DNA of 43,373 nt from Methylocystis sp. (GTDB taxonomy: Bacteria; Pseudomonadota; Alphaproteobacteria; Rhizobiales; Beijerinckiaceae), in assembly GCA_022843525.1 (NCBI GenBank), contig JALHNR010000003.1:1-43373 (forward strand). The letters run 5' to 3'. Below the pieces are notes generated by a model. It was given only the letters and a program-made list of their open reading frames with translations. It was not told where the DNA came from and made no database searches. The position numbers and the translations under genes are program-made. This document shows positions 17,608-37,083 of the stretch, piece by piece. How positions within the stretch are numbered: the first letter of the stretch is position 1; each line of letters begins with the position of its first letter.

Positions 17608-17620
17608 CACTTGAGGCATC

Positions 17621-19526: not shown

Positions 19527-19552
19527 ACTAGATCAACCCAAGGAGAGACCCG

Positions 19553-19822: not shown

Positions 19823-19835
19823 ACGGGAGTCTTCT

Positions 19836-20327: not shown

Positions 20328-20348
20328 GTCCTACCTGGAGTTCCTGCC

Positions 20349-21158: not shown

Positions 21159-21165
21159 AGGCGTG

Positions 21166-22011: not shown

Positions 22012-22043
22012 GACATCAGCACAACGCGAAAAGAGTAACGAAA

Positions 22044-22346
22044 ATGGTTGCAGACAGCTTCATCACGCGCCCGCCGCACTCGGCACGCCCGTCGTTCAAG
22101 CGCGAGCAGTCCGGAGCGCGCAAGCCTTTCAAGCCGAAGCCCTGGTCGCATCAGCGCGACCTCGAAGCTCTGAAGGGTAAGAAGATCACGTTTCTGATTG
22201 CCAGTAGCGTTGAATGGCAGACCGGCGTTCTTGTCGAGGCTGATCAGTTCACCCTGAAGATCGCGGTCGAATCGATCTTTATGAACGGACAACAGTCATT
22301 GCTGACTTACTTTAAGTCGCAGTTTACCGCCTACGCAGCCGCCTGA
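22044..22346 (+). CDS. Putative Sm/Hfq-like RNA-binding protein
   Basis: A 100-residue protein. After a basic, Pro-rich N-terminus (about residues 1-35) the C-terminal 65 residues align by eye with Hfq: L-E-A-L helix, a hydrophobic strand, a central Gly, then the diagnostic D-Q-F of Sm1, and an LLTYFKSQFTAY strand in the place of Hfq YKHAIST. Hfq forms a hexameric ring that pairs small RNAs with mRNAs. This is a judgement from motif spacing, not from a search. Its 3' end contains palindrome copy 7 and its stop overlaps the helicase start. Confidence 0.6.
   Translation: MVADSFITRPPHSARPSFKREQSGARKPFKPKPWSHQRDLEALKGKKITFLIASSVEWQTGVLVEADQFTLKIAVESIFMNGQQSLLTYFKSQFTAYAAA
22292..22309. promoter_or_regulatory. 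18-bp palindromic site inside coding sequence, copy 7
   Basis: ACAGTCATTGCTGACTTA, within the last codons of the Sm-like gene and 37 bases before the helicase ATG. Left-arm variant GTCAT is the same as in copy 10 before the tRNA. Being kept inside a coding sequence argues that it is a functional site for the helicase-primase unit. Confidence 0.7.
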
Positions 22347-23737
22347 TGTCGAACGTCGAGGAAAAGGATCCGCAGGTAGCCGCCGCGCCGGCCGCGAAGG
22401 CTGAGCCTGCGGAGAAGCCGGAAGGCGGCTTCGAGTTCGACGAGAAGTTCCAGCGCAAGATCGCGGCGCTCGCGGTCCGCGACACCGTGTTCGTGCAGCG
22501 CACCGAGGGCCTGGTGATACCGGAATACTTCGAACACGCGGCCGATCGCGCCATGATCGCGGTGGTTCAGGACTTCTACAAGAAATACAAGAAGGCACCG
22601 GATCCCTCGTCGCTCGCGCAAGCCCTCAAGCTCGCCCGCGACGACAAGAAGATCCGCCCTGAACTGTGGCCCGATATCAGGGATCGCCTGGGCAAGCTGC
22701 TCTCGGTCTCGCTTGCCGATCGCGATTTTGTCATCGACCAGGTCGCCGCGTTCGCCCGCAACACGGCGATGCAGAACGCCATCATGGCCTCGATCCCGCT
22801 GATCGACAAAGGCGACTACGCCAAAATCGAGCAGCTGATCAAGGCCGCGGTCATGGTTGGCGCCGCCGACGATGACAACGAATACGACTACGCCGCCGAG
22901 ATCGCCAACCGAACCGATCACCGTGTCGCGCTGCTGACCGGCACCATCAAGCCCGATGGCATCAGCACCGGCTTCGCGGATATGGACAAGCACATGTATC
23001 ACGGCGGCTGGGGCCGCAAGGAACTGTCGGCGATCATGGGTCGCGCGAAGTTCGGCAAGTCGATGGCGCTGGGTGACTTCGGCAAGAACGCCTATATGCT
23101 CGGCTACAAGGTTCTGATCGTCTCGCTTGAGGTCTCGGAACGCATCTACGCCGACCGCATCGACGCCAACATTGCCGAGACGGCGATGCAGGTGCTCAAG
23201 CAGAATGCCTTCGCGATCAAGGCCAAGATCGAGGCTGCCGAACAGAAAGCAAACGGCGTCGGCGGCGTTCTCAAGTTGCACGCCTTTGCGTCAGGCACCT
23301 ACAAGCCCTCGCAGCTGCGCCGCCTGATCGAGCGCTATCGCACTCGCGGCATCATCTTTGACCTGCTCGTGGTCGATTACGCCGATATCATGTGTCCGGA
23401 GCGGGTCACGGATTCGGTCACCGAGAATTCCAAGAGCGTGTGGCTCGACCTGCGCGCGATCGCCTTCGAGCAGAATGCAGCCGTTCTGACGGCCACACAG
23501 ACCAACCGGGACGGCGCCAAAGCGGCCACAGCCAAGGCCACCGACGTCGCCGAGGACTACAACAAGGTCCGGATCGCCGATCTGCTGCTGTCGGGCAACG
23601 CGACCGAGGCCGAAATCTCGGCCGGCGAGGCCAGGCTCCACTTCGCGGCCAGCCGTAACCAGGCCGAGGTCACACTGCGGATCGCCCAGAAGCGCGACCA
23701 GATGAAGTTCTTCACCAAAGTTCTGGGTGTCTCATGA
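22346..23737 (+). CDS. Replicative DNA helicase, DnaB-like
   Basis: A 463-residue RecA-fold helicase. Residues 1-30 are a disordered Ala/Pro/Glu leader, 30-180 form the helical N-terminal domain, and the ATPase begins at GISTGFADMDKHM. Walker A is GRAKFGKS (232-239), Walker B lies in DLLVVDYADIM, and an ATQTN segment (TATQTNRD) matches the H3 glutamine motif. DnaB-type helicases encircle the lagging strand and recruit primase, whose gene overlaps it by four bases. The ATG shares its first base with the preceding stop. Confidence 0.92.
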   Translation: MSNVEEKDPQVAAAPAAKAEPAEKPEGGFEFDEKFQRKIAALAVRDTVFVQRTEGLVIPEYFEHAADRAMIAVVQDFYKKYKKAPDPSSLAQALKLARDDKKIRPELWPDIRDRLGKLLSVSLADRDFVIDQVAAFARNTAMQNAIMASIPLIDKGDYAKIEQLIKAAVMVGAADDDNEYDYAAEIANRTDHRVALLTGTIKPDGISTGFADMDKHMYHGGWGRKELSAIMGRAKFGKSMALGDFGKNAYMLGYKVLIVSLEVSERIYADRIDANIAETAMQVLKQNAFAIKAKIEAAEQKANGVGGVLKLHAFASGTYKPSQLRRLIERYRTRGIIFDLLVVDYADIMCPERVTDSVTENSKSVWLDLRAIAFEQNAAVLTATQTNRDGAKAATAKATDVAEDYNKVRIADLLLSGNATEAEISAGEARLHFAASRNQAEVTLRIAQKRDQMKFFTKVLGVS

Positions 23738-24846
23738 CGATGGCCGGTCGGGTCGACAAGGACGAACTGACCGAACAGCTGGATCTGGAATACTGGTTCG
23801 ATCGGGAAAGTCTCGCGCACAAGGTCTCGCGCGGGGCATCCGGCATGCAGATCAACGCCAAGGACTGCCCGAAGTGCGGCGACGCCCGCTGGCGCGTCTA
23901 TCTCAACGCCGATACGGGTCTCGGCAACTGCTTCGTCTGCAACGAGGGCTTCAACAAGCTCAAATTCATTCACATGGCGCTGGGTCACGATCCGGACGAT
24001 CGCAAGTCCTGGCGCCTGACCTTCGACCACGCCAAGGAATGCCTGGTCGAGCAGGGCTGGCGCCCCAAGCAGCGCGTCGAGGTCGCCGTCGAATATGAAA
24101 CGGCGACGCTTCCCGACTCGATGGAACTACCCACCAAGGACGGCCGCAATCTGAAATATCTGGAGGATCGCGGCATCATCGGCGAGCTCGCCAAGTTCTT
24201 TCATCTGCGGTTCTGCATTAGCGGCAAATGGTGGTTCACCAACGAGGAGGGCGGCCGCGGCTTCCAGAAATTCGACCAGCGCGTCATCATCCCGATCTAC
24301 GACCTCGACGGCACCTTCAAGACGTTCCAGGGCCGCGATATCACCGGACTTGTTCTCGACAAGAAATACCTGTTCCCAAAAGGATTACCAGGAACCGGTC
24401 GATATCTCCTAAACGGTCAATCTGTGCAGCGGGCACGGCGCGCCGTGATGGGCGAGGGCGGCTTCGACGTGTTCGCCTTGAAGCTGGCAATGGACGGCGA
24501 GGTGGCGCTGCGCGACGTGGTGCCGATCGGCTCCTTCGGCAAGCATCTGTCGTTTGGCTCCGCCGGCGGCGACGACCAGCTGTCCCGATTCCGAACCCTC
24601 AAGAAACAGGGTCTGGAGGAGGTCACGATCATGTGGGACGGCGAATGGAAGGCGCTGCTCGCGGCCTGCGAGGCAGCCAAACTCCTGCGCCAGGTCGATC
24701 TGGTCGCCAAGATCGCGCTGCTGCCGGCCGGCCGCGACCCCAACGAGGTCACCGCGGACGTCGTGCGGCGCGCCTTCTGGGAGGCGGTTCCCTACAGCCA
24801 GTCCCAACATATCAAGTGGATGCTGAAAGACCCCTTCAAATCCTGA
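23734..24846 (+). CDS. DNA primase, zinc finger plus TOPRIM
   Basis: A 370-residue phage primase. The zinc finger has Cys45 and Cys48 (CPKCGD) and Cys66 and Cys69 (CFVCNE). The TOPRIM domain has Glu in GEGGFDVFALK and a later Asp in TIMWDGEWKA. It lacks the C-terminal helicase-interaction domain of bacterial DnaG, as expected when primase and helicase are separate coupled genes. A stretch of about 60 bases (24370-24425) before the TOPRIM Glu uses atypical A/T-ending codons. It closes the Sm-helicase-primase unit. Confidence 0.9.
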   Translation: MTMAGRVDKDELTEQLDLEYWFDRESLAHKVSRGASGMQINAKDCPKCGDARWRVYLNADTGLGNCFVCNEGFNKLKFIHMALGHDPDDRKSWRLTFDHAKECLVEQGWRPKQRVEVAVEYETATLPDSMELPTKDGRNLKYLEDRGIIGELAKFFHLRFCISGKWWFTNEEGGRGFQKFDQRVIIPIYDLDGTFKTFQGRDITGLVLDKKYLFPKGLPGTGRYLLNGQSVQRARRAVMGEGGFDVFALKLAMDGEVALRDVVPIGSFGKHLSFGSAGGDDQLSRFRTLKKQGLEEVTIMWDGEWKALLAACEAAKLLRQVDLVAKIALLPAGRDPNEVTADVVRRAFWEAVPYSQSQHIKWMLKDPFKS

Positions 24847-24853
24847 CAAAATG

Positions 24854-24871
24854 GCAGTCAGTTTTGACTGT
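24854..24871. promoter_or_regulatory. 18-bp palindromic site, copy 8
   Basis: GCAGTCAGTTTTGACTGT, flanked by further pairing bases. A possible promoter overlaps it: CTGTCA (24868-24873), 17 bases, TATATT (24891-24896). CAAAAT also ends two bases before the palindrome. It leads the WGR-ligase unit. Confidence 0.75.
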
Positions 24872-24906
24872 CAACCCGTGATAAACTCGCTATATTCAAC
24901 TCACAG

Positions 24907-24925
24907 AGCGCAGCACAGCGCAGCA
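24907..24925 (+). repeat. Leader repeat shared with the CobS-like unit
   Basis: AGCGCAGCACAGCGCAGCA in the leader of the WGR gene. The first 16 bases (AGCGCAGCACAGCGCA) recur exactly at 33980-33995 in the leader of the CobS-like gene. Each copy is itself a near-repeat of AGCGCAGCAC. It lies between palindrome and ribosome site in both cases. Confidence 0.7.
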
Positions 24926-24945
24926 ACACAGAGGACGAAGTCATC

Positions 24946-25458
24946 ATGTTCCCGATGACCATCATGAAGCGGTCGGGCCGCGCCCAGTCGTCGTCAGGCG
25001 GCAAAGACTATCACCTCGTCCTGATCGAGAACGCCGATCTCAAGGCGATTTTCATCCAGCGCTGGGGCAAGGCTCGCCAGTGGGGCAACGGCTGGAAGCT
25101 GGAAGAACACCCTAACGCCAATGCCGCGCGCTCGGCTTGGACGGCCAAGGTCAAACAGAAATTCAACGGCGAATACACCGAAGAGATCACCAGCAAGACG
25201 AAAATCGTCAACGACCTAGCCGAGCTTCGCAAGGAGCTGGGGCTGCAATACGTCGCCAAGATCGGCAAGGCGCTTCAGTTTCTGATCCCCGGTCTCGACG
25301 TGTCCGATCTGAAGGAGCCCGAGATCGATACTGAGTGGATCGAACAAAAGGACGGCACCGTGCGCAAGAGGGAGCGTGACCGAAAGCTGGTCGAGCTCCC
25401 GCCGGAGCCGGTCGAAGATCGCGCGCAATCCAACACACAATGGGGAATCTGGGGATGA
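24946..25458 (+). CDS. WGR-domain protein
   Basis: A 170-residue protein. Residues about 22-75 form a WGR domain (YHLVLIENADLKAIFIQRWGKARQ split as strands around Q-R-W-G-K, then a C-terminal helix NANAARSAWTAKVKQKF). WGR domains bind nucleic acids and occur in PARPs and with DNA ligases; an ATP-dependent ligase lies three genes downstream in the same operon. The C-terminus is charged and ends WGIWG, an aromatic tail that could bind a partner. GAGG lies upstream of the ATG; the stop overlaps the next ATG. Confidence 0.78.
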   Translation: MFPMTIMKRSGRAQSSSGGKDYHLVLIENADLKAIFIQRWGKARQWGNGWKLEEHPNANAARSAWTAKVKQKFNGEYTEEITSKTKIVNDLAELRKELGLQYVAKIGKALQFLIPGLDVSDLKEPEIDTEWIEQKDGTVRKRERDRKLVELPPEPVEDRAQSNTQWGIWG

Positions 25459-26000
25459 CATTTCCGATCAAGACTTACGATCCGGCCAATCAGTTTCAGT
25501 TCGTCTGCCCAGTCTTCAAGGCGACGACCAAGATCGCGTCGTGCCTGACGCTGCGTGATCTCGTATGGCGCGGCGAACACCCCGAGCAGCGCAAGGGTTG
25601 TCAGTGCGCGATGGAGAGCGGCAAGTGCCCGATCCCGGTCATCGTCACAAAAATCACCCGCTTGAGGAATGATCCGTATCATTCGGACGCGCCAAAGGTC
25701 GGCGCTCTGGAGTTCGACATTCTCGACGCGATTGCGCCGGTTCTGACGTCCGATCGTGCGATGCAGAGACACGGTGTCTCCGCCGGGGAGGAGAAGCTAT
25801 TGATAAAAGCCAACGAAGATGCTCGCAACGGCGTCCGCATCATCACCAAGCCGCCCCGCCGCATCGAGCGTGTGGTGGATATGGAGGATGTCAAGGCCCC
25901 CGCGGCCGCGCTGCCGGCGCCGACCGACGCATCCGAACTCGTGCGTGCCGCCCAGTCGGGCGACATGGCAGCGGCAATCAACGCGGAGGTCGGCTCGTGA
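25455..26000 (+). CDS. Cys-rich protein between WGR and ligase genes
   Basis: A 181-residue protein. The N-terminal 60 residues contain five cysteines (Cys18, Cys30, Cys49, Cys51, Cys58; the last three as CQCAMESGKC), suggesting a zinc- or Fe-S-binding domain. The remainder is helical then Ala/Pro-rich and disordered. ATGA and GTGA overlaps tie it to both neighbours, so it likely acts with the WGR protein and ligase. No family recognised. Confidence 0.68.
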   Translation: MTFPIKTYDPANQFQFVCPVFKATTKIASCLTLRDLVWRGEHPEQRKGCQCAMESGKCPIPVIVTKITRLRNDPYHSDAPKVGALEFDILDAIAPVLTSDRAMQRHGVSAGEEKLLIKANEDARNGVRIITKPPRRIERVVDMEDVKAPAAALPAPTDASELVRAAQSGDMAAAINAEVGS

Positions 26001-26236
26001 ACCTGGAACAAATTCGCCAGGCGCCCTGGACGCGCTGCGATACGCCCGCGGTCGAGGCCGACGACCACGAAGCGATGACGGAGATCAGCGCACCCTGGGT
26101 CACGATGGGTGATAGCCCGCCGCGAGTTCTGTCCGCGGTCGATATCTGCGGCGACGTCTATGTGGTCGCGCGATGCCCAAGAACCGATGCGGTTACAGAT
26201 TGTTGGAAAGTTCAACTAGAGGAGAATGCACTATGA
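25997..26236 (+). CDS. Small hypothetical protein, GTG start
   Basis: A 79-residue protein starting with GTG that overlaps the preceding TGA, and ending over the ligase ATG. Sequence is mixed, with three cysteines and several acidic residues (VEADDHEAMTEI), and DVYVVARC as a likely strand. Coupling on both sides supports expression. No family recognised. Confidence 0.6.
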   Translation: MNLEQIRQAPWTRCDTPAVEADDHEAMTEISAPWVTMGDSPPRVLSAVDICGDVYVVARCPRTDAVTDCWKVQLEENAL

Positions 26237-27336
26237 TTTCTGAACCAATTTTCAAGCGCGATACCAGCGGCAAGATCCGCACCTGGCAATACGAGGTCGA
26301 GGGCTTCAAATACCGCACGATCGCCGGAATCAAGGATGGCAATCTCGTCACCACTGGATGGACCAATTGCGTCGGCAAGAACGCCGGCAAGGCGAACGCC
26401 ACGACCGACGAGGAACAGGCGATCTCTGAAGCCGCGGCCGACGAGGGCAAGAAGCTCAAGCGCGAGTATCGCCTCACGATCGCCGAGCTCGATGCGGTTC
26501 CGGTCGGCCCGATGCTCGCCGCCGGCTACGACAAGCTCAAGAAGCCGGTCACGTTCCCGGTTTACTCGCAGCCGAAGCTCGACGGCATCCGGGCTATCAT
26601 CAATCGGCACGGCGCGTTCAGTCGGGAACTGCAGCCACATTACAACTGCGACCACATTCTCGAAGCTCTGGCGCCGGCGTTTGACGCCTATCCGGACATC
26701 AGTTTCGACGGCGAGTTCTACAACCACGATCTGAAGGAGGACTTCAACACGATCGTTTCCGTCGTGCGCAAGCAGAAGCCCTCCGAGGAACAGCGCGCCG
26801 AGGCCGCGAAGCTGATCCAGTATCACATCTACGATCTGCCGAGTGACAACGAATTTGGCCGACGCAGCTTCGATCTGAAGGCGATCAACACCCTGCTCAA
26901 GATCGGCGCGACCGGCGCCATCGTCATCGTGTCGACCGAGAAGGTCATCACTCAGCTGCGCCTGGACGAACTGAACGGCGAATACGTCTCCGCCGGTTAC
27001 GAAGGTCAGATGGTGCGACTCAATCTGCCCTACGAGTTCGACACCCGCTCCAAGTCGCTGCTCAAGCGCAAGGAGTTCATCACCGAGGAGTTCCCGGTCC
27101 TGCGAATCGAGGAGGGTCTCGGCAACTGGGCCGGCTACGCCAAGCGCATCGTGCTGAACGTCGAGGGTAACGAGGTCGGCGCCGGCATGCGCGGCAATCA
27201 GGACTTCGCCAAGAAGCTGCTCGGCCGCACCGACATTGTGTCGTCAACGATCCGGCACTTCGGCCGCACGCCCGACGGCTCGCTGCGCTTCCCGGTCGCG
27301 ATCGACTTTCAGACCGCCGCGGGGAGGGTGGATTGA
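26233..27336 (+). CDS. ATP-dependent DNA ligase
   Basis: A 367-residue ligase. Residues 1-80 are the N-terminal accessory domain common in phage ligases (FKYRTIAGIKDGNLVTTGW, then a GKNAGKANAT segment). Nucleotidyl-transferase motif I is KLDGIR with adenylated Lys115, motif III lies in ISFDGEFYNHD, motif IV in YEGQMVRL and motif V in SLLKRKEF. It seals nicks using ATP. The start at 26233 is set by AGAGGAG upstream and by the overlap with the previous stop; longer in-frame readings are rejected. Confidence 0.95.
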   Translation: MISEPIFKRDTSGKIRTWQYEVEGFKYRTIAGIKDGNLVTTGWTNCVGKNAGKANATTDEEQAISEAAADEGKKLKREYRLTIAELDAVPVGPMLAAGYDKLKKPVTFPVYSQPKLDGIRAIINRHGAFSRELQPHYNCDHILEALAPAFDAYPDISFDGEFYNHDLKEDFNTIVSVVRKQKPSEEQRAEAAKLIQYHIYDLPSDNEFGRRSFDLKAINTLLKIGATGAIVIVSTEKVITQLRLDELNGEYVSAGYEGQMVRLNLPYEFDTRSKSLLKRKEFITEEFPVLRIEEGLGNWAGYAKRIVLNVEGNEVGAGMRGNQDFAKKLLGRTDIVSSTIRHFGRTPDGSLRFPVAIDFQTAAGRVD

Positions 27337-27620
27337 TGTCGGCTTTCAGCGAGGCGCTCGCGGCCGAAGCCGGCATGGGCGGAGTGGATGAAACCGGCGA
27401 CATCGTCTTCGCCGCCGGAGCATTTGAGCGGCTGTTTGCCGCGGCCAACAAGGTAAACATCTACACCAAGTCGGTTGCGATCGAACTGCTCGAAGCCAAG
27501 ATCGCCGACCTGGAGCACCACAATCACACGCTCCTGGTCCACAACAACGAGCTCCTGGCCCGCGCCAGGGCGGCCGAGGCCCTGGTCAAGTCCTTCGGCA
27601 ACAGCGGCGCGTTTCAATAA
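27336..27620 (+). CDS. Small coiled-coil protein after ligase
   Basis: A 94-residue protein whose ATG shares its A with the ligase TGA. The second half is a predicted coiled coil (VAIELLEAKIADLEHHNHT continuing to ARARAAEALVKSF). Similar small coiled-coil proteins are frequent in phages without known function. It ends the ligase operon; palindrome copy 9 follows 15 bases later. Confidence 0.7.
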   Translation: MSAFSEALAAEAGMGGVDETGDIVFAAGAFERLFAAANKVNIYTKSVAIELLEAKIADLEHHNHTLLVHNNELLARARAAEALVKSFGNSGAFQ

Positions 27621-27634
27621 TCTGCGGTTGCGCA

Positions 27635-27652
27635 ACATTCAGTATTGACTGA
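27635..27652. promoter_or_regulatory. 18-bp palindromic site, copy 9
   Basis: ACATTCAGTATTGACTGA, core TCAGTATTGACTGA with perfect 5-base arms. No protein gene follows closely; a short region ending in a strong terminator does, so the site may control a small RNA. Confidence 0.65.
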
Positions 27653-27753
27653 GGTCTCTTGCGCAACTATGTTACCCCGACCACTGGGTTAAGTGGACCT
27701 ACCTCCTATGTTGTGTTGTGCAAGGGCGGGTCTCCGGATCCGCCCTTTTTTTC
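27653..27753 (+). ncRNA. Candidate small RNA with intrinsic terminator
   Basis: About 100 bases between palindrome copy 9 and a strong terminator, with no convincing ORF (an 8-codon ATG frame at 27668 is the best). It contains a small hairpin (CCAC, 8-base loop, GTGG near 27680-27696) and ends with the terminator stem. The arrangement palindrome, short non-coding stretch, terminator, next palindrome suggests an independent small transcript. A phage Sm/Hfq-like gene in the same genome makes this more interesting. Not a known family. Confidence 0.4.
27722..27752 (+). terminator. Rho-independent terminator
   Basis: AAGGGCGG (27722-27729), ten-base loop, CCGCCCTT (27740-27747), followed by an uninterrupted T run to 27752. 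A strong GC stem with T tract, the best intrinsic terminator in the window. It separates the ligase unit and small RNA from the tRNA. Confidence 0.9.
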
Positions 27754-27769
27754 TTCACGCTGGCATGAT

Positions 27770-27787
27770 ACAGTCATTGCTGACTTT
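27770..27787. promoter_or_regulatory. 18-bp palindromic site before tRNA, copy 10
   Basis: ACAGTCATTGCTGACTTT, ending two bases before the first base of the tRNA. CATGAT lies immediately upstream as a possible -10. It shares the GTCATTGCTGACTT core with copy 7. Confidence 0.72.
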
Positions 27788-27789
27788 AA

Positions 27790-27866
27790 CGCGGGATGGC
27801 GCAGTCCGGTAGCGCGCCTGGCTCATAACCAGGAGGCCAAGGGTTCAAATCCCTTTCCCGCAACCA
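27790..27866 (+). tRNA. tRNA-Met (CAT), initiator-type acceptor stem
   Basis: A complete 77-base cloverleaf with encoded CCA. Acceptor arm: C1 opposite A72, then six pairs. D stem GCGC/GCGC, anticodon stem CCTGG/CCAGG, loop CTCATAA with anticodon CAT at 27824-27826, T stem AAGGG/CCCTT with loop TTCAAAT. The unpaired C1-A72 is the hallmark of bacterial initiator tRNA-fMet, needed for formylation. However, the anticodon stem has T29-A41 in place of the first of three G-C pairs, and position 11-24 is C-G as in elongators. So it is a hybrid, best called initiator-like. Confidence 0.93.
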
Positions 27867-27874
27867 AATTCGAG

Positions 27875-27894
27875 CCAGATCGAAGGCGATCTGG
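27875..27894 (+). other. Perfect hairpin after tRNA
   Basis: CCAGATCG, loop AAGG, CGATCTGG: an 8-bp perfect stem 8 bases after the tRNA CCA end. No T tract follows, so it may serve as a processing or stability element. Between it and the next tRNA-like element a 26-codon frame (27911-27991, MGQDARELVRIYAARW...) looks protein-like but has no clear ribosome site. Confidence 0.5.
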
Positions 27895-27969
27895 AGCTGC
27901 AATTTCGCGGATGGGGCAAGATGCCCGCGAACTCGTGCGAATCTACGCGGCGCGCTGGAAGCAACAATG

Positions 27970-28043
27970 GCGGCGCGGTCGGGAGTCATGACCCTTCTGC
28001 TCCGTTCGCCAAGTAGACGGTTCAATCCCGTCTCGCCGCTCCA
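27970..28043 (+). tRNA. Degenerate tRNA-like element
   Basis: GCGGCG (27970-27975) pairs with CGCCGC (28034-28039), followed by T73 and CCA. The T arm is perfect (GACGG, TTCAATC, CCGTC) and GGTC/GACC forms a D-like stem. Where the anticodon arm should be (27995-28011) only the outer and inner pairs form, around a loop CTCCGTT. Bases 8 and 9 are missing. So the ends look like a real tRNA while the decoding arm is broken. It may be a decayed tRNA, a tRNA mimic, or an attachment-site-like copy of a host tRNA 3' end. No function as a decoding tRNA is claimed. Confidence 0.4.
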
Positions 28044-28059
28044 ATTTCTCGAGGATCTG

Positions 28060-28158
28060 ATGAAATACGCTCTCTATTCCTTTCTCGCCCTCGTCGCGAC
28101 GCTGGTGATTCTGAACAATACCGGCCTGCTCAGGGCGCTGGTGGGGCTCGCTTCCTGA
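28060..28158 (+). CDS. Micro membrane protein
   Basis: A 32-residue protein, MKYALYSFLALVATLVILN..., with GAGG five bases before ATG. Almost the whole chain is one hydrophobic helix, so it should insert in the membrane. Its 3' end overlaps the 3' end of repC on the other strand by 29 bases. Function unknown; single-helix micro-proteins of phages often modulate host membrane proteins. Confidence 0.6.
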   Translation: MKYALYSFLALVATLVILNNTGLLRALVGLAS

Positions 28159-29299
28159 TCAGCGCCATCAGTTCGTGCCGGACGTTCGACCGGCCCTCGA
28201 CGAACATACGAACCATCGCCCGCAGGTAACCGCCCGGATTACGAATCTTGGGCGTCGGCGAGGCCGCATCGTCGTTGTAGAGCTGGAACACCAGGCAGAC
28301 CGTGGCCGCGGCATTGATCGGCCCCAGCGCCTGAACCGCCTCGTCCCAGACCGTGCCGTGGGCGCCGAGCGAGGATCGCAGATAACGGCCGGCGGCGACC
28401 AGATCGACCTCGGTTTGCGGCGTCTCAATGAAGTCCGAAAGAGAAGGACATGCTTCGACCACCAGCTCCACAGGCGCGTTGCTGGCGATCGGAGAACGAT
28501 CTTCCACGCAGCCAGCTTCCTGGGAAGCCTCTTGTTCCAAGGTTCCGTCTAATAAGGTAGGGGGCTTTGATTCAATGAGCGGGCACAATTTGCCGCCAGA
28601 GGCGGCTTGATAGAAGGCTTCCTCGACTTCACCCCGCAGCGATCGCCACCTATCCACAATAGGCTCCAGTGTATACATCGGAGTTGACAGGCTGCGGCGC
28701 GGGGTCCGCGCCTGCAATTCCTCGAGCTGGCTATGCAAAAAAGTAACAGCGTTTTCTGACAAGCGCGCGAGGGCGCCTAGGGCCTCGTCGATTGCCCGAC
28801 GACAGATTGTCACCTCGTCAAACAAACGCGCCCTGACCTCGCTCTGTTGATCCTGCGCGCGCACCAGCTCAACCCACTCACCGCGGCGCGCGTAGACCGG
28901 GGTCAGATCGAAACCGAACACGTCGATCACGCTGCCGACGCGGTTCTTGATGGCGAAACGCTTGCCGTTGGCCGAGTCCTTTGGGGTGATCAGGGTCAGA
29001 TCCACCAGCCCGCGGATCCCATAGCGCACCGCGCGCTCGGACAGCCCCGTGCGCCGGCACAGATACTCGTTCGAGGGCCACACCAAGATGCGTTCGCCGA
29101 TCATTTTCTCGCCCCAGCACCCGATCAGCTCGCCGAGCACCAGGCGCAGGGAAGGGCGCATCAGCAGCGCCTTCATGGCGTCGCGCCCGGCCGCGGCCAG
29201 CTCCTTGCGTGTGACCTGTCGCTCGCCCTCGATAGCGTGTTGTCGTCCCGCCAGGGCGGCAGCCGTCGCCGGCCGGCCCCCAGATGAAGCCAGTCTCAT
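28130..29299 (-). CDS. repC: RepC-type plasmid replication initiator
   Basis: A 389-residue protein with the family hallmarks: N-terminal winged-helix region with WPSNEYLCRRTGLSERAVR, then DSANGKRFAIKN and FGFDLTPVYAR, a middle coiled helix, and a C-terminal part with ACPSLSDF and NPGGYLRAMVRMF...ELMALIRKR. In repABC plasmids RepC is the essential initiator and its origin lies within its own gene. ATG 29299 with GGGGAAG upstream is chosen; TTG 29311 would add four residues. No RepA or RepB gene is present. It is antisense to all neighbours except the small gene upstream. Confidence 0.9.
   Translation of the reverse strand: MRLASSGGRPATAAALAGRQHAIEGERQVTRKELAAAGRDAMKALLMRPSLRLVLGELIGCWGEKMIGERILVWPSNEYLCRRTGLSERAVRYGIRGLVDLTLITPKDSANGKRFAIKNRVGSVIDVFGFDLTPVYARRGEWVELVRAQDQQSEVRARLFDEVTICRRAIDEALGALARLSENAVTFLHSQLEELQARTPRRSLSTPMYTLEPIVDRWRSLRGEVEEAFYQAASGGKLCPLIESKPPTLLDGTLEQEASQEAGCVEDRSPIASNAPVELVVEACPSLSDFIETPQTEVDLVAAGRYLRSSLGAHGTVWDEAVQALGPINAAATVCLVFQLYNDDAASPTPKIRNPGGYLRAMVRMFVEGRSNVRHELMALIRKRAPPAP
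28650..28658 (+). other. DnaA-box-like site in repC, possible origin region
   Basis: CTATCCACA, 8 of 9 matches to the DnaA box TTATCCACA. It lies in the middle of repC near AT-richer stretches (about 28540-28690). In repABC plasmids oriV is inside repC, so this is a plausible place for an origin, but the single site is weak evidence. Confidence 0.3.
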
Positions 29300-29350
29300 G
29301 ATCTTCCCCAATTTTGGGCAAGCCTTCGGCGGTCACCGAATCGGTGTTGC

Positions 29351-29379
29351 TTGACACTGAATGTTGGGAAGGGCATAAG
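29351..29379 (+). promoter_or_regulatory. Sigma-70-type promoter for antisense RNA
   Basis: TTGACA at 29351-29356, a 17-base spacer, CATAAG at 29374-29379. The -35 is a perfect consensus with ideal spacing. It points away from repC, on the strand opposite to repC, and has no ORF behind it; instead a terminator lies about 50-85 bases downstream. Confidence 0.75.
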
Positions 29380-29385
29380 AGGCTG

Positions 29386-29466
29386 TGTTTAGGGCCTCTT
29401 TGAACCATTCCCGGTTCGTTGATCTCCGAAAAGCCTCACCGGGTTCCCGCCCAGTGGGGCTTTTTG
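29386..29466 (+). ncRNA. Predicted counter-transcribed antisense RNA controlling repC
   Basis: A strong promoter and an intrinsic terminator enclose about 80 bases in the gap between the RHH gene and repC, on the strand opposite to repC. A small hairpin (GAACC, six-base loop, GGTTC at 29402-29417) precedes the terminator stem. In repABC plasmids a small ctRNA is encoded in exactly this place, upstream of and antisense to the repC leader, and sets copy number and incompatibility. The match in position, orientation and signals is strong; sequence homology was not tested. Confidence 0.7.
29429..29465 (+). terminator. Terminator of the antisense RNA
   Basis: AAAAGCCTCAC (29429-29439) pairs with GTGGGGCTTTT (29454-29464) with one T-G wobble; T tract TTTTT at 29461-29465. 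The loop is GC-rich (CGGGTTCCCGCCCA). The stem also ends in TTTT on the minus strand, so it could act on the repC leader as well. Confidence 0.82.
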
Positions 29467-29470
29467 CTGC

Positions 29471-29674
29471 CTAAGTGTCTGATTTTGCCGTGAATTCCTT
29501 TTCCAAGGCTGATGTGATAGCCACGCGACGCGACGGATACTTCCCTTCGGACACAAGCTGCTCGATCACCCGACGAACTGATTCGGGGATCCACACGTTG
29601 GTTTCGACCAGACCACGCTCTCGCCTGGTCTTGCGGAACCGTTGAACGCGCACGCGGCTCTGAATGTCGGTCAT
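29471..29674 (-). CDS. Ribbon-helix-helix-like small DNA-binding protein
   Basis: A 67-residue basic protein on the same strand as repC and upstream of it. A strand-like VETNVWIPESV is followed by two helices (RRVIEQLVSEGKYPSRRVAI, TSALEKEF), the pattern of Arc/CopG/ParD proteins. The ribosome site AGAGG lies upstream of ATG. It holds the place that repB or a partition protein has in repABC operons, so it may regulate or partition the replicon. A diverged palindrome site lies in its promoter region. Confidence 0.7.
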   Translation of the reverse strand: MTDIQSRVRVQRFRKTRRERGLVETNVWIPESVRRVIEQLVSEGKYPSRRVAITSALEKEFTAKSDT

Positions 29675-30096
29675 GGGCCTCTCGACTCGTTACGTTCCGA
29701 GTAATGGCCGATTCTAGGTGATTTGCATAGGGCGGGTCCCGCGCGACCGTGAAAACAGTCAGAATTGAGCGGCGTTCCCGAATCGCATAACCTTCATTAT
29801 GGAATGTTTTGCCCGTAACCCAATGATATAAAAGGGATTTCGCCTATATGGCATAGGAACGTAACATATTCTGGTTGACAGTCAAATAAATTAGGAACAG
29901 ATTTCGACTGTCAGAATTTACTTATTTCACAGGCAGCAGCGTATCCCATGCGAAACCCGCTGATCGCGAGCTATATTCGAACTGTTAGAGAAAAAAAGTT
30001 TGGACGAAACTCGGTGCGGCCGAGCAAACGCGACTATTGAGGATCGCAACAACACAAAAGGGTTTTTTGAAAATGCTATCGGTAGAGGGCGCCAAA
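29675..30096. promoter_or_regulatory. Divergent control region between RHH/repC and XRE genes
   Basis: A 420-base gene-free stretch, AT-rich between about 29780 and 29930. It holds a diverged palindrome (29755-29772, ACAGTCAG then AATTGAGCGG), an inverted repeat CCTAT/ATAGG (29843-29857), an 8-base inverted repeat TGACAGTC/GACTGTCA (29876-29883 and 29906-29913), palindrome copy at 29907-29924, and GCTATATTC (-10-like TATATT at 29972-29977). For the minus strand TAGAAT reads at about 29712-29717. The layout resembles an immunity switch region. Confidence 0.65.
29907..29924. promoter_or_regulatory. 18-bp palindromic site before XRE gene, copy 12
   Basis: ACTGTCAGAATTTACTTA. Left arm TGTCAG, right arm TTTACTTA; the right half matches copy 16 at 40873. 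A further half-like element TTGACAGTCAA sits 30 bases upstream, so two binding units may face each other. The location before the regulator gene suggests autoregulation. Confidence 0.6.
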
Positions 30097-30519
30097 ATGT
30101 CGAAGTCACCTGGTCGTGGAAGTGTCAACTTTGCGGAAGGCATCAAGATCCACGAGTTTATCTCCAAGCAAATCGACAACCAGAAGTCGATGGGCAAGAC
30201 CCAGAAGGATATCGCGAAGGAGTTGGGCTACGACAAGCCGAACATGATCGCCATGATGAAGTCCGGCGACGTGAAATTGCCCCTCGACAAGGTGCCGGCG
30301 CTCGCCAAGGCGCTCGGCGTCGAGCCGGCGTTCCTGTTTCGCCTGGCGATGAACCAGTATTGGCCCGAGACGGCCGACGCGATCGCCCAGGTGTTCGGCA
30401 CGGTTTTGACCCCCAACGAGGTCAAAATCGTGGAGAGAATTCGTGAGTTCTCCAAGAACAGCGACCCGGTGCTGAACCGCGAAGCTGAAACTCACCTGCG
30501 CGCGGCCTTCAAGAAATAG
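30097..30519 (+). CDS. XRE-type helix-turn-helix regulator
   Basis: A 140-residue protein. The HTH lies at about residues 24-55 (KTQKDIAKELGYDKPNMIAM as helices 2 and 3), followed by a KLPLDKVPALAKALGVEPAF segment typical of XRE/Cro-CI folds, and a helical C-terminus. It is the only clear classical transcription regulator in the window and stands divergent from repC, so it is the prime candidate for binding the repeated palindrome. ATG 30097 is chosen because AGAGG lies eight bases upstream; ATG 30073 would add eight residues. Confidence 0.8.
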   Translation: MSKSPGRGSVNFAEGIKIHEFISKQIDNQKSMGKTQKDIAKELGYDKPNMIAMMKSGDVKLPLDKVPALAKALGVEPAFLFRLAMNQYWPETADAIAQVFGTVLTPNEVKIVERIREFSKNSDPVLNREAETHLRAAFKK

Positions 30520-30532
30520 GGCTGCCTAAACT

Positions 30533-30562
30533 AATAAGCGGCCTCTTGCGGGGCCGCTTATT
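30533..30562 (+). terminator. Terminator after XRE gene
   Basis: AATAAGCGGCC, eight-base loop, GGCCGCTTATT: a perfect 11-bp stem 14 bases after the XRE stop, followed by ATAT. The AATAAG/CTTATT flank gives A and T tracts on both strands, so it may act in both directions. Confidence 0.85.
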
Positions 30563-30577
30563 ATATGCCATCCGTCC

Positions 30578-30595
30578 TAAGTCAAAACTGACTTA
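30578..30595. promoter_or_regulatory. 18-bp palindromic site, copy 13
   Basis: TAAGTCAAAACTGACTTA, near-perfect arms with one mismatch. It follows the XRE terminator and precedes the next small gene by 46 bases. Confidence 0.78.
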
Positions 30596-30641
30596 TGTTT
30601 CCGAGCCGACTGCTCCGGCATTTCAAAAAAAGGTTCCCTTT

Positions 30642-30857
30642 ATGTCGTCATCGAAAATCATCGAAGTCACCCTCGAACGTGCCTACGAACTAGCCGGCCA
30701 GCTCTACGGAAAGACCGCACACCAGACGTCTGCAATTCAGGTGTTCAGCGGCAACCATCCCGATCTCGGTGATGTCCATATTGTAATTCCTCCTCTGGGC
30801 GACGCCGTCATTCTTCCCGCGTTGCTGCCAGTAGTAATCCAGAATTTTTCGCTGTAG
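30642..30857 (+). CDS. Small hypothetical protein
   Basis: A 71-residue protein (MSSSKIIEVTLERAYELAGQ). The first half is helical, the second has two hydrophobic strands (VHIVIPPLGDAVILPALLPV). No signal peptide or cysteine. AAAAGG lies nearby upstream. Palindrome sites flank it on both sides, so it is a monocistronic unit. No family recognised. Confidence 0.6.
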   Translation: MSSSKIIEVTLERAYELAGQLYGKTAHQTSAIQVFSGNHPDLGDVHIVIPPLGDAVILPALLPVVIQNFSL

Positions 30858-30866
30858 CGTCTATTT

Positions 30867-30884
30867 ACAGTCAATTCTGACTTA
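30867..30884. promoter_or_regulatory. 18-bp palindromic site, copy 14
   Basis: ACAGTCAATTCTGACTTA, in the 45-base gap before the CobT-like gene. CTATTT lies just upstream as a weak -10. Confidence 0.75.
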
Positions 30885-30902
30885 GAGAGAACAACGCGCA
30901 AC

Positions 30903-33494
30903 ATGAACAAGGTTCAGATCCTACGCGAGGTCATCAAGAAGCTGGTGCCGATGATCGCCAGCCGTGACATTCGGGTTACCCAGGTTGGAGCTCAAGCCTT
31001 TGTTCAGACCGATACGCGCACACTAAAGCCGGTGCGGGTCAATATCCCGCACCTTCCCGACGACGCCGACGACAGTCTGGTGTTCGCGATCCAGGGCTTT
31101 ATCGACCACGAGCTCGGTCACGTCCTCGACACCGACTGGTCGGTGGTCGTGACCGCGAAGCCGAAGGGCCGCGCCCTCGCCGCTAAGCGCAAGATGCCCC
31201 CCGAATTCGCCGCACAGCGGATGCATGACCTGGGCAACCTCGTCGAAGATCCGTATGTCGAGCGCAAGATGTCCGAGCGCTTCAAGGGCGCCGCCTACAA
31301 TGTGGACAAGCTCCACGATATCTTCATCGCGCGGATCTCGAAGCCCGCGATCGACGCCGCCAAGACCCCCGAGGACCGTTTCGGCTGCATCATCGTGCCG
31401 CTGGTGCGCGCCTGGGCCGGTCAGGAGAAGTTTCGAGCCTTCATCGACGACAACGGCTACATGAACGACCCGTTGGTCGAGGCGTTCGATCGCCTGGTGC
31501 CGGCGAAGCTCAAGGCTGATCTGAAAAAGACCCGCAGCACCAGCGATTGCATGGCGATCGCCGAGCAGCTGTTCGACATCATCCATCCGGAGCCGCCCCC
31601 GCCCCCGCCGGCGCCCCCGAAGCCGTCAGTCCCGCCCCCGCCGGCGCCGCCCGAGAAGGGCGGCGACGAAAAGGACCAGGAGAAGTCCGACGAGCAGGCA
31701 GACAGCGAGAAGGGCGAGCCGAGCGACGGCGAAGGCAACAACCAGGACAAGCCCGAGGACGAGGACGACAAGGGTTCCGACGGCGAGCAGTCGGTCGACC
31801 ATGAGAAGGATGACGATGGCAAGGAAAGCGAAAAAGCCGAGGAAGGCGAGAAGCCCGAAGGTGACGAATCTGATGCCGAGAATGAGCCCGGCGATGGTGA
31901 TCAGGGCGATGGATCTGCTGCTGGCGAGGATGACAAAGCCGACGAAGGGTCCGAGGGCAAGAAACATGACGCCGCCGATGACGATAACGGCGATCAAGAC
32001 GACGAATCTGAAGACAAAGACGACGCCGAAGGTGAAGCCGGCGATGACGGTGACGCCGATGATGATGCGGACGCAGACGGAAGTGCTGGCGATAGCGACG
32101 AAAAGTCCGAGGACGAGACTGACGAGAACCAGAATGGTTCAAGCTCTGAGAAGGACGATGACGATGCTGGTGAAGATGGCGAACAGGGCGAGCCCGAAGC
32201 CGGCACGAACGACGCGGACGGAGGCTCTGAGAGCGACGAGGGCGATCAGGACGACGCCGACGGCAAGGATTCGGTAGAAGGCGAGAGCAAGGGCGAGCAA
32301 AAAGAAGGCGACGACGCCGAGGGCGCGAAAGAGGCTCAGGGCGGCGGCAAGACCCAGGATACGCCCGTCGAGGACGACGACGACGCCGAGGCGACCAAAA
32401 ACGATCACGAGGAAGCGCCCGAATCCAACCCCTTCATGGGCACGACCCTCGACAAGATCGGCGACGATCTTGCGAAAGGTATTCAGTTCATCATCACCAA
32501 TGAAGCCACGCGCGACATTCGGGATGCCGACTACCGCGTCTACACGACCGACTGGGACGTCTGCGAGAAGTTCCCGGTGCCGAAGATCGACCCTAACGCG
32601 ACGCCGGCGCCGGTCGGCCGCGGCCGCCGCCGAAACCATTACGGTCAGTCCCCCCTCGACGTGCCCAAGCTGGTCGAAAAGCTCGAGGAATTGACCAGCA
32701 AGATGGTCGCCCCGATGCAAAAGGACATCGAGCGCATGATGGCTGCGCGCAGCCAGGTCGTGAAGGTTCCGGGCTATCGCTCGGGTCGCCTGCACTCCGG
32801 ATCGCTGCATCGTCTCCGGGTCGGCGACGATCGCGTGTTCCGCCGCATCGAGGTCAACAAGTCGCTGGAGACGGCCGTCACGCTCCTGATCGACAATTCG
32901 GGATCAATGAGCGGCGCGAAGATGAAAACCGCGATGGCCGCAGGCTTCGCCCTGTCGTCGACGCTGGAGCGCGTCAAGATCAAGCACGAGGTTATGGGCT
33001 TCACCACGATGCAGCCGCGGGACAACCCGAACTGGATGCAGGAGCAGGAAGCTGAGGAGCAGCGCATCGGCATGCACTTCTCGCGCATGGGCGCCCTCTA
33101 CCACCCGCTTTACAAGGGCTTCGACGAGCGCCTGTCGCCCGCGGTCAAGCAGCGCTTCGCCTGCGCCCCCGAGACCTGCCCAATGGGCGGCAACACCGAC
33201 GGCGAGAGCATCCGCTTCGCAGCCAACAGGCTCGCGATCCGAACCGAGCCGCGCAAGGTGATGATTGTGCTGTCCGACGGCAACCCCGCGGCGATGAGCC
33301 ATCACACCGGCGAAATCTACGCGGACGTGCATCGCGCGGTGAAGGAATGCGACAAGAAGGGGATCGAAATCGTCGGTCTCGGCATCATGGACAGCGCGGT
33401 TCGCACCTTCTATCCGAAGTGCGCCGTGCTCAACGACCTGTCGGAACTGCCGAAAGCAGTGATGGGCGAACTCAAGAGGGTATTGGCAGCATGA
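30903..33494 (+). CDS. CobT-like VWA protein with HExxH domain and acidic linker
   Basis: An 863-residue protein. Residues about 1-225 form a helical domain with H69-E-L-G-H73 and a downstream NLVEDPYVER, which together look like a gluzincin-type zinc site. Residues about 230-505 are a Pro stretch then an extremely Asp/Glu-rich linker. Residues about 650-863 are a VWA domain with MIDAS motif DNSGSMSG, a NTDGE loop and LSDGNP. This is the layout of the cobaltochelatase subunit CobT, which pairs with AAA+ CobS; a CobS-like gene follows. No CobN is present, so it more likely works as a MoxR/VWA-type remodelling pair. Confidence 0.85.
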   Translation: MNKVQILREVIKKLVPMIASRDIRVTQVGAQAFVQTDTRTLKPVRVNIPHLPDDADDSLVFAIQGFIDHELGHVLDTDWSVVVTAKPKGRALAAKRKMPPEFAAQRMHDLGNLVEDPYVERKMSERFKGAAYNVDKLHDIFIARISKPAIDAAKTPEDRFGCIIVPLVRAWAGQEKFRAFIDDNGYMNDPLVEAFDRLVPAKLKADLKKTRSTSDCMAIAEQLFDIIHPEPPPPPPAPPKPSVPPPPAPPEKGGDEKDQEKSDEQADSEKGEPSDGEGNNQDKPEDEDDKGSDGEQSVDHEKDDDGKESEKAEEGEKPEGDESDAENEPGDGDQGDGSAAGEDDKADEGSEGKKHDAADDDNGDQDDESEDKDDAEGEAGDDGDADDDADADGSAGDSDEKSEDETDENQNGSSSEKDDDDAGEDGEQGEPEAGTNDADGGSESDEGDQDDADGKDSVEGESKGEQKEGDDAEGAKEAQGGGKTQDTPVEDDDDAEATKNDHEEAPESNPFMGTTLDKIGDDLAKGIQFIITNEATRDIRDADYRVYTTDWDVCEKFPVPKIDPNATPAPVGRGRRRNHYGQSPLDVPKLVEKLEELTSKMVAPMQKDIERMMAARSQVVKVPGYRSGRLHSGSLHRLRVGDDRVFRRIEVNKSLETAVTLLIDNSGSMSGAKMKTAMAAGFALSSTLERVKIKHEVMGFTTMQPRDNPNWMQEQEAEEQRIGMHFSRMGALYHPLYKGFDERLSPAVKQRFACAPETCPMGGNTDGESIRFAANRLAIRTEPRKVMIVLSDGNPAAMSHHTGEIYADVHRAVKECDKKGIEIVGLGIMDSAVRTFYPKCAVLNDLSELPKAVMGELKRVLAA

Positions 33495-33934
33495 GCTTGA
33501 ATTGGAGAAGAGATCAGCGGCCCAAGCGCTATGGTTGGGCGCCTGGCTCCTATATGGGCAGCTGTGGCGGCGAGGGCTGTCGGAGCAAGTCGGTCGAGGA
33601 CAAGGTGTTCATCGGCGACAAGCGGGCGACCATGTGCGCAGACTGCGCCTACGCCCTGCCCTGGCCTCCGGCGCAGTCTGCTCCGCGGGTCCCACAAACC
33701 GACACCGCGCGCGCGATCGAGGCTTTCGATCGGCTCAAAATGCTCGAAGCCTCGATCGCCGAGGCCATCGAGCTCCTGGCGAGCTACATGACGGACGAAA
33801 TGGCACAGCCTGGCGGAACCTTCGATGACTTTCCCGATATCGACAGCGCCCGCAACCAGCTCCAGGACGCCCTCGACGGCGACTGGAAGGCCCTGGCCGA
33901 TCAAGACCAAGCGAACTCCCTAGACCCCGAGTAA
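33491..33934 (+). CDS. Small zinc-ribbon-like protein between CobT- and CobS-like genes
   Basis: A 147-residue protein coupled to the CobT-like gene by an ATGA overlap. The N-terminal 55 residues hold four cysteines in two pairs (CGGEGC and CADC), a zinc-ribbon pattern. The rest is an acidic helical region (EAFDRLKMLEASIAEAIELL). It may bind the VWA or AAA+ partner or DNA. Family not recognised. Confidence 0.68.
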   Translation: MSLNWRRDQRPKRYGWAPGSYMGSCGGEGCRSKSVEDKVFIGDKRATMCADCAYALPWPPAQSAPRVPQTDTARAIEAFDRLKMLEASIAEAIELLASYMTDEMAQPGGTFDDFPDIDSARNQLQDALDGDWKALADQDQANSLDPE

Positions 33935-33949
33935 GTTTCAGCTTGTTTT

Positions 33950-33967
33950 CCAGTCAGTTCTGACTTA
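33950..33967. promoter_or_regulatory. 18-bp palindromic site, copy 15
   Basis: CCAGTCAGTTCTGACTTA, core identical to copy 4. It leads the long unit from the CobS-like gene through the polymerase. Confidence 0.8.
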
Positions 33968-36820: not shown

Positions 36821-37083
36821 TGCCCGGACATTTCGGCATGACCTATACGCGCAACATGCGCCCTACCGGCAAAATTCGTTTTGTCGAACGCCGTCATTGG
36901 TGGCGAATCTTTATCGTTCCCTCGATCGAGATCGAGTGGGAATCCCAATATCGGCAAGCTCCGGCGATCCACCCTCTGCCGGAAGCCGGCTGGGTCAGGA
37001 AGACCCGTTGGCGCGACGCCGAAGCGCTGGACATGGCGGAGCCCGCGCTGCGCTGGGTCATCGACGGCAAGAAGGATATCTGA
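36820..37083 (+). CDS. Small basic protein before polymerase gene
   Basis: An 87-residue protein rich in Trp, Arg and His (RFVERRHWWRIFIVPSIEIE). Start and stop are coupled to both neighbours, the stop sharing a base with the polymerase ATG. It might be a nucleic-acid-binding or polymerase accessory protein, but no family is recognised. Confidence 0.6.
   Translation: MPGHFGMTYTRNMRPTGKIRFVERRHWWRIFIVPSIEIEWESQYRQAPAIHPLPEAGWVRKTRWRDAEALDMAEPALRWVIDGKKDI

Follow-up and report, generated by a model that had tools for sequence, protein, structure and literature searches.

The closest described relatives of the locus analysed here are the Rhizobium phage RHEph10 (NC_034248) and pLM21S1 of Sinorhizobium sp. 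LM21 (KM659098), which the accessible text of PMC4447125 (2015) treats as the archetypes of a plasmid-like prophage group, pLM21S1 being described there as having a RepC-like system and lacking an integrase. The accessible text of PMC5537653 likewise ascribes a RepC-like system to pLM21S1 and reads it as a phage-plasmid or plasmid-like prophage, and the siphophages B1VFA and V1VFA-S have been reported to carry repC, parA and parB (PMC12509600, 2025). Our subject is a repC gene in a 43,373-nucleotide stretch of Methylocystis sp. DNA (the window), which is the whole of contig C3 in a 4.19 Mb assembly of 488 contigs and represents about 37% of a phage genome. An earlier note on this DNA had recognised a plasmid-type RepC without RepA or RepB in a tailed phage without an integrase and had suggested a phage-plasmid lifestyle. 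We propose, with a probability of roughly 0.85, that this repC encodes the protein that starts replication, in the plasmid (prophage) state, of a temperate, siphophage-type phage-plasmid belonging to the RHEph10/pLM21S1 group.

RHEph10 shares with the window the order of genes from a DNA transfer protein, PhoH and DnaB through repC to Pol III and the single-stranded DNA-binding protein (SSB), and also has ParA- and ParB-like genes, while pLM21S1 keeps the same order from repC through Pol III. However, the RepC proteins of these two elements are 35–36% identical to that of the window, and their palindromic half-sites read AGTAA and AATCA rather than AGTCA. B1VFA and V1VFA-S resemble the window phage in combining repC, parA, parB and a DNA-binding regulator in siphophage genomes of 118–122 kb (PMC12509600), although the RepC of B1VFA is about 36% identical, and both were isolated as plaque-forming virions whereas the window phage is known from an assembly alone. 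The Methylobacterium phage-plasmid NZ_CP090351 is collinear with the window and two further contigs of the assembly, C4 and C7, over much of its length and has 28 copies of the palindrome found in the window; in contrast, its RepC and that of pAMS5a (NZ_CP006993) are 45–47% identical to the window protein, and other genes lie between the ligase position and repC.

RepC and the phage genome that carries it

The gene and its candidate origin of replication (oriV) are placed as follows.

28130..29299, minus strand: repC, plasmid-type replication initiator of 389 aa, starting at ATG 29299 (alternative TTG 29311), assigned by RepC profiles and tree
28530..28680 (approximate), minus strand: candidate oriV, the A+T-richer middle of repC, placed by an A+T peak

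The plus strand of the repC stretch is interrupted by stops. The RepC hallmarks named in the earlier note were borne out by the family models: the protein scores 134.5 bits against Pfam RP-C PF03428 (cut-off 24.4), 62.7 against RP-C_C PF11800 (cut-off 32.6) and 182.2 against NCBIfam RepABC_RepC NF040974 (cut-off 150). Its 157.8 against PRK13824 lies well under the cut-off of 390, as does the 178.2 of the pLM21S1 phage-plasmid RepC, while the classical repABC RepC of A. vitis reaches 604.3. In a sample of the class, PF03428 was matched in 23 of 289 genomes at E ≤ 0.001 and above its cut-off in 20, the window's own genome counted. In a 54-row RepC tree, the window groups with five phage contigs on nested branches of 99–100% bootstrap, the nearest (L033) at 72% identity, whereas the three classical RepCs, including two that come from the same assembly as the window, branch separately. 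When 14 more genome rows are added in a quicker tree, a 51-row clade of phages, the window and nine plasmid rows is retained (SH-aLRT 91), with several long branches. Both trees were built without the duplicates L003, L029, L057, L065, L066, L038 and L061, which the leader count below also omits, and without L027 and L030.

The A+T peak of the window repC lies at nt 620–770 (z 2.9 against codon shuffles), and the corresponding peak starts at nt 573–724 in 47 of 53 RepC genes of phages and plasmids; its mean height is 2.0 standard deviations above codon shuffles, exceeding 2 in 18 of the 53. Because an A+T-rich stretch in repC is required for the origin of p42d, whose oriV lies there according to the accessible text of PMC3155836, this conserved peak makes a replication origin inside repC plausible. 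A search of solved structures found no relative of RepC (best E 0.63), and an AlphaFold model (pLDDT 87.3, pTM 0.55) had no fold matches at E ≤ 0.001. Weak fold matches of the model include many winged-helix regulators, and we did not use them as evidence.

Contigs C3, C4 and C7 total 116,330 bp and are joined by exact overlaps of 118 bp (C3, from base 19, with C4) and 49 bp (C4 with C7); the first 18 bases of C3 are presumably an Illumina adapter remnant. The tail of C3 and the head of C7 face each other once both are matched to CP090351. C4 carries the terminase TerL, 71% identical to that of the Methylobacterium oryzae phage-plasmid, and a homologue of an annotated major capsid protein, while C7 carries a ribonucleotide reductase (RNR) at 69% to the same phage-plasmid. 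The element thus combines the virion and packaging genes of a phage (tail genes in the window, TerL and the capsid homologue on C4) with plasmid replication and partition genes (RepC, ParA and ParB), the combination by which phage-plasmids are recognised. Around repC, the window contains the following genes.

22346..23737, plus strand: DnaB-type helicase (PF03796, 54.9 bits)
23734..24846, plus strand: DNA primase (PHROG 47, E 3.2e-37)
26173..27336, plus strand: ATP-dependent DNA ligase (PF01068, PHROG 114)
27790..27866, plus strand: tRNA-Met (CAT), with a perfect operator-like site ending 4 nt before it
30903..33494, plus strand: CobT-like VWA protein, to the right of the repC cassette (PF11775, 119.9 bits)
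34020..35192, plus strand: CobS/MoxR-like AAA ATPase (PF07728, PF08406)
35192..35848, plus strand: phage sigma factor (PF04542, PHROG 351)
36897..40424, plus strand: Pol III alpha (PF07733, PF17657, PF14579, PF02811)
42555..43373, plus strand: SSB, truncated by the contig end (PHROG 1192, E 2.7e-40)

Further phage genes in the window encode tail proteins, the DNA transfer protein and PhoH. The Pol III, helicase, primase and SSB listed in the earlier note are all present, together with the ligase, and from this gene content we infer that two replication modes may coexist. The C-terminus of Pol III alpha matches a uracil-DNA-glycosylase-like domain (PF03167, 26.7 bits), and a 934-aa frame in the tail region (7303–10107) has no PHROG match at E 0.001.

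The absence of RepA and RepB was upheld across the phage genome. Of the assembly's 10 matches to the RepA model, none falls on C3, C4 or C7, and one falls on C180, a contig that also carries a classical RepC. The RepA and RepB proteins of fetched plasmids gave no tblastn match on the three contigs at E 0.01. The repABC arrangement, in which repA and repB precede repC in one operon, is replaced here by a gene for a ribbon-helix-helix (RHH) protein upstream of repC. Genes for ParA (217 aa) and ParB (PF02195) are found on C4; neither is of the RepA/RepB kind, and both score below the partition-model cut-offs (ParA_partition 93.3 against 180, parB_part 50 against 58.45, partition_RepB 18.9 against 201.5).

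As the earlier note had found for the window, and now also for C4 and C7, no integrase of the usual kinds is present: tyrosine recombinases (15 matches in the assembly) and serine recombinases (7 matches) have none on C3, C4 or C7, DDE recombinases not having been searched. This bears on an alternative in which RepC is a relic and phage integration proceeds through an unrecognised recombinase or at the tRNA gene next to repC. The tRNA-Met and a tRNA-like remnant do adjoin repC, and a tyrosine recombinase occurs at this position in a few relatives, yet the repC frame is open and has conserved relatives, relatives of the phage are circular plasmids, and the searches for tyrosine and serine recombinases came back empty for the phage contigs; we regard integration as very improbable. 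The remnant is a degenerate stretch (27970–28041) between the tRNA-Met and repC, with a weak, sub-threshold reverse-strand match of 28.7 bits. The first acceptor pair of the tRNA-Met is non-standard, C1 against A72, and a non-standard first acceptor pair is a mark of initiator tRNAs. In L033, a tRNA-Met lies about 1.2 kb from repC.

The relatives comprise 10 Rhizobium phage records (RHEph10 twice) with RepC at 34.5–37.2% identity, three unannotated faecal phage contigs with weak RepC matches, and six circular plasmid records of 115.7–119.4 kb from alphaproteobacterial strains, each with one RepC and a Pol III match of 58–62%. The order ligase position, repC, RHH, helix-turn-helix (HTH) gene, CobT is kept in RHEph10, Shinella, M. 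oryzae, AMS5, Pararhizobium and phages B1VFA, X66 and N1_10; M. oryzae has extra genes before repC, and the ligase is not annotated as such in M. oryzae and Pararhizobium. The locus order could be read through in five of the six circular plasmids, and in pLM21S1 from repC onward. Shared gene order and core genes, together with the computed collinearity with CP090351, place the window phage in the RHEph10/pLM21S1 group. The phage-plasmid lifestyle suggested by the earlier note is supported by the RepC profiles, the absence of a tyrosine or serine integrase and the circular plasmid relatives, and the phage of about 116 kb very probably lives in its host as a plasmid. Neither of the two outcomes that the note had named as refuting it was observed, since RepC is far above the Pfam and RepABC_RepC cut-offs and the rest of the phage genome showed no tyrosine or serine integrase. 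The RepC and CobT of R. beringeri pRlX6 (L015) fall in several frames, which may reflect a decaying phage-plasmid or sequence errors.

The repC cassette and its leader

A conserved cassette, consisting of the RHH gene, an antisense-RNA signature and repC, is divergent from the gene of an XRE-type regulator.

29351..29379, plus strand: antisense promoter-like site TTGACA-N17-CATAAG in the repC leader, conserved across leaders
29384..29467, plus strand: predicted counter-transcribed RNA against the repC leader, with a terminator hairpin at its end (fold and terminator-like site)
29471..29674, minus strand: RHH-like gene of 67 aa, putative CopG-type regulator, upstream of repC (alignment with 10 relatives)
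30037..30519, plus strand: XRE-type HTH regulator, putative prophage repressor (PF01381, 26.8 bits, cut-off 23)

The RHH family profile matches ParD and NikR at E 0.003–0.008, Pfam alone being weak, and an RHH match is present in 43 of 47 phage or phage-plasmid RepC loci, duplicates included (absent in L023, L024, L041 and L051). Alignment indicates that the XRE gene probably starts at ATG 30097, and its product matches PHROG repressor and regulator families. An XRE-type regulator gene lies in the same locus in 46 of the 47, and for the 47th (AMS5) on the other fetched piece, L020.

The terminator-like site of the predicted antisense RNA lies at 29445–29459, and the segment 29384–29474 folds at -36.9 kcal/mol (z -3.89). 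Forty RHH-repC leaders were compared, drawn from loci with RHH and RepC on one strand and cut at the start of the profile match rather than at a proven start codon. All 40 contain, at a near-fixed place on the opposite strand, a TTGAC(N)-N16–18-(-10) site, and 32 also contain a hairpin with a T-run about 60–104 nt beyond it, against 0.19 expected from shuffles for promoter plus terminator. The 40 comprise 38 leaders of phages or phage-plasmids, which account for all 32 with both signals, and two of Microvirga plasmids with the promoter only; both signals were found in 9 of 2000 random control segments of the same loci. Among eight further plasmid leaders, the promoter occurs in all eight and both signals in five, including the repB-repC gap of the Microvirga terrae repABC operon, while the A. 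vitis repABC repB-repC gap has the antisense promoter only.

The antisense RNA gene that marks the leaders of repABC and repC-family replicons is represented here by a sequence signature of promoter plus terminator, and this signature agrees with what the accessible texts of PMC3155836 and PMC10194956 describe for the antisense RNA in repABC and solo-repC replicons. Like the window, the replicons p42d, pRmeGR4a and pSmeLPU88b have a RepC with an upstream antisense RNA (accessible parts of the same two papers). Unlike repABC, the window has no repA or repB upstream, the RHH gene takes repB's place, and its RepC does not group with the sampled classical RepC rows.

RepC and the antisense RNA are also known as incompatibility factors (accessible texts of PMC3155836 and PMC10194956), and the same type of cassette occurs on plasmids, so one could envisage cargo or a weapon that mainly displaces resident repC-type plasmids rather than replicating the phage. 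Such a role would leave the phage without a known means of maintenance, and the RepCs of the assembly's own plasmid-type contigs (C122 and C180) are distant in the tree; we consider it quite improbable, and favour the cassette as the initiator unit of the prophage plasmid.

A putative exchange slot and possible traffic with plasmids

A CobT-profile scan yielded 44 viral and 4 genome loci. Among 56 records, a set that includes duplicates (for example G009 and W07, G018 and W04) and many fragments, PF03428 exceeds its cut-off in 45, a tyrosine integrase (PF00589) occurs in 6, and both occur in 1. That sole record, L055 (G035), is a fragment with the two genes about 1 kb apart and may be an intermediate. 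The prevalence of the CobT profile itself carries no information, as 293 of 385 genomes have a match; among the matches listed, the N-terminal half is covered only in this assembly.

The interval between the ligase position and CobT, here called the slot, holds other genes in relatives without RepC. In Cupriavidus it is occupied by TrfA and a MipZ/ParA-like gene, and in Paracoccus litorisediminis (L068) by a Rep_3 initiator. Both L039 (G019) and L042 (G022) have RepA_C initiators there, together with a 221-aa tyrosine recombinase; L054 and L022 have integrases (the L022 contig stops shortly after), and A. baumannii has a ParA-like gene with a recombinase. In L044 the slot has an RP-C match below threshold (23.1 bits), in L062 a guanylate-kinase-like gene, and in L034 nothing recognisable in the two frames tried; L030 (G010) and L046 (G026) start inside or just before CobT, placing the slot outside view. 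L034 (G014, 117,557 bp) is a full-length relative with AGTCA palindromes and without RepC or a tyrosine integrase. Because other plasmid initiators or integrases stand here in RepC-less relatives, the data fit a slot that serves as a place of exchange for the means of prophage persistence. The Acinetobacter and Cupriavidus phage-plasmids resemble the window in a Pol III of about 42% identity and a similar layout of ligase position, slot, CobT, MoxR and Pol III, but the initiator in the slot is TrfA in Cupriavidus; SSU5-like phage-plasmids have one of the IncFIB type (accessible text of PMC11652158).

This arrangement is relevant to whether RepC could instead be a lytic initiator, opening a phage origin and loading the phage DnaB helicase without a role in plasmid maintenance. 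The gene does lie inside the replication region, between the ligase and the CobT, CobS, sigma and Pol III genes, and RepC distances track those of CobT, with a correlation of 0.74 over 37 loci that none of 999 permutations equalled (Mantel test, on loci with CobT matches of more than 600 residues, omitting L003, L029, L057, L065, L066, L061, L027, L030, L015 and L036), a result equally in keeping with our main reading. Yet repC is opposite to most of its neighbours, divergent from the regulator and preceded by an antisense-RNA signature typical of plasmid copy control, and relatives that keep CobT (and Pol III, in Acinetobacter and Cupriavidus) have other plasmid initiators or integrases in the slot. 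A purely lytic role is accordingly unlikely, and initiation of the plasmid state remains our preferred reading of RepC.

Plasmid RepCs are nested among the phage copies in the tree: that of a 456 kb M. oryzae plasmid lies beside the host's own phage-plasmid, and that of R. leguminosarum pRL9b2 falls within the Rhizobium phages. The pLM21S1 RepC has nine plasmid records at 60–80%, namely pRlX6 and eight larger plasmids of 257–318 kb. An RHH gene precedes repC in seven of nine plasmid loci fetched from the clade (L082 and L085 being without), and the well-supported branches require at least 4–5 phage/plasmid changes, a count biased by the selection of plasmid RepCs for likeness to the window RepC. 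L085 (Microvirga terrae pR24_2) has a complete repA-repB-repC operon whose RepC lies inside the phage-containing clade.

Dispersed palindromes and the proposed circuit

The earlier note's regulator with dispersed operators has a counterpart in the XRE gene and in a set of operator-like palindromes, both of which are real features of the sequence.

7257..33965, no strand: span of 12 perfect operator-like sites on C3, starting at 7257, 11719, 13328, 15981, 17592, 19511, 22294, 24856, 27772, 30580, 30869 and 33952
29757..29922, no strand: two imperfect operator-like sites (at 29757 and 29909) between the HTH gene and the RHH-repC genes, each with 2 mismatches to AGTCAATTCTGACT
30580..30593, no strand: perfect operator-like site AGTCA-N4-TGACT downstream of the HTH gene (palindrome scan)
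30869..30882, no strand: perfect operator-like site just before the CobT-like gene (palindrome scan)

The perfect palindrome AGTCA-N4-TGACT occurs 34 times in the assembly, with 12 copies on C3, 16 on C4 and 6 on C7, the remaining 485 contigs being free of it, against 6 in the assembly for the backward control pattern. By naive gene calls (longest non-overlapping frames, which make the count approximate), 26 of the 34 are intergenic, and 18 are followed at a distance of 8–76 bp by a called start on the strand read. Copies of the same palindrome number 28 in the M. oryzae phage-plasmid and 3 in RHEph10, where the repeated sequence is rather AATCAATATT, present 17 times, and pLM21S1 has AGTAA-N4-TTACT 6 times in 30 kb.

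This distribution suggests a putative operator set for the XRE repressor that would silence the prophage genome-wide. The sites might alternatively be bound by the RHH protein or form part of a sigma-factor element. The link between the HTH recognition helix and the half-site is imperfect: L024, L044, L053 and L062 share a DKPN helix and have only 1–2 sites, and L047 (HKPN) has none. The L5-type stoperators of Cluster A mycobacteriophages are comparable in that many sequences resembling repressor sites are spread over the genome, with variant motifs in relatives (accessible text of PMC6550527); those stoperators are asymmetric and oriented with transcription, whereas the putative sites of the window phage are palindromic.

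Taken together, the gene content would be compatible with the following circuit. In the lysogen, the XRE protein bound to the dispersed palindromes would silence the lytic genes, and RepC would start low-copy replication at an origin inside or near repC. The antisense RNA, much as its counterparts do in repABC and repC-family plasmids, would keep the level of RepC low, perhaps with help from the RHH protein, while ParAB would segregate the prophage copies. Upon induction, loss of the repressor would allow the phage Pol III, helicase, primase, ligase and SSB to replicate the genome for packaging.

Several observations weigh against this reading or its parts. The joint between the C3 tail and the C7 head lacks an overlap, so that the ring is still open at one place, and long terminal repeats, as in B1VFA (PMC12509600), would likewise make a phage assemble as a ring. 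The bin is 90% complete and 6% contaminated, and the presence of phage contigs in it is no proof of residence in that host; mitomycin C also failed to induce pLM21S1 (accessible text of PMC4447125). The RHH assignment has weak scores behind it. As to the leader, the promoter rule is lenient, as 165 of 2000 random segments pass it when the terminator condition is dropped, and 8 of the 40 leaders have no terminator by the rule used. A generic promoter scan of 28100–31000 found no sigma-70-type site; its rule requires the -10 hexamer to end in T, unlike CATAAG, and the antisense promoter call leans on conservation. Rfam antisense-RNA families gave no match at E up to 5, and matches besides the tRNA were sub-threshold. 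DnaA boxes in repC number 5 over 53 genes against 4.0 expected, which amounts to chance, the window repC having one near-match, TGTGGATAG, with 1 mismatch. Finally, 8 of the 34 palindromes lie inside the naive gene calls.

The phage-plasmid group has been in print since 2015 (pLM21S1 and RHEph10, then B1VFA), so the interpretation is right and its kind known, whereas the features of replication and silencing control in the group appear to be new to the literature. Within a search that had most subscription journals outside it, no listed paper described, in its title or the opening of its abstract, an antisense-RNA cassette, slot exchange or an operator network in this group, and RepC was not found in the accessible text of Pfeifer and Rocha 2024 (PMC10879196).

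A joint reading, which we hold tentatively and at somewhat less than even odds, is that the cassette of RHH gene, antisense RNA and repC is mobile between phage-plasmids and plasmids, and that the phage lineage was the source from which certain Rhizobium and Methylobacteriaceae plasmids captured a solo or second repC replicon. The slot would be refilled by RepC, Rep_3, RepA_C, TrfA or an integrase, switching plasmid type or integration, while a palindromic, L5-like network would silence the prophage, its half-site setting immunity groups. The analysis places a 116 kb element of an alphaproteobacterial assembly in a little-studied phage-plasmid group and outlines for it a compact circuit of replication and silencing. 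Should the cassette indeed travel between phage and plasmid, solo repC replicons would have one of their origins here, and the slot would offer a natural experiment on how a prophage alters its mode of persistence while the rest of its genome stays.

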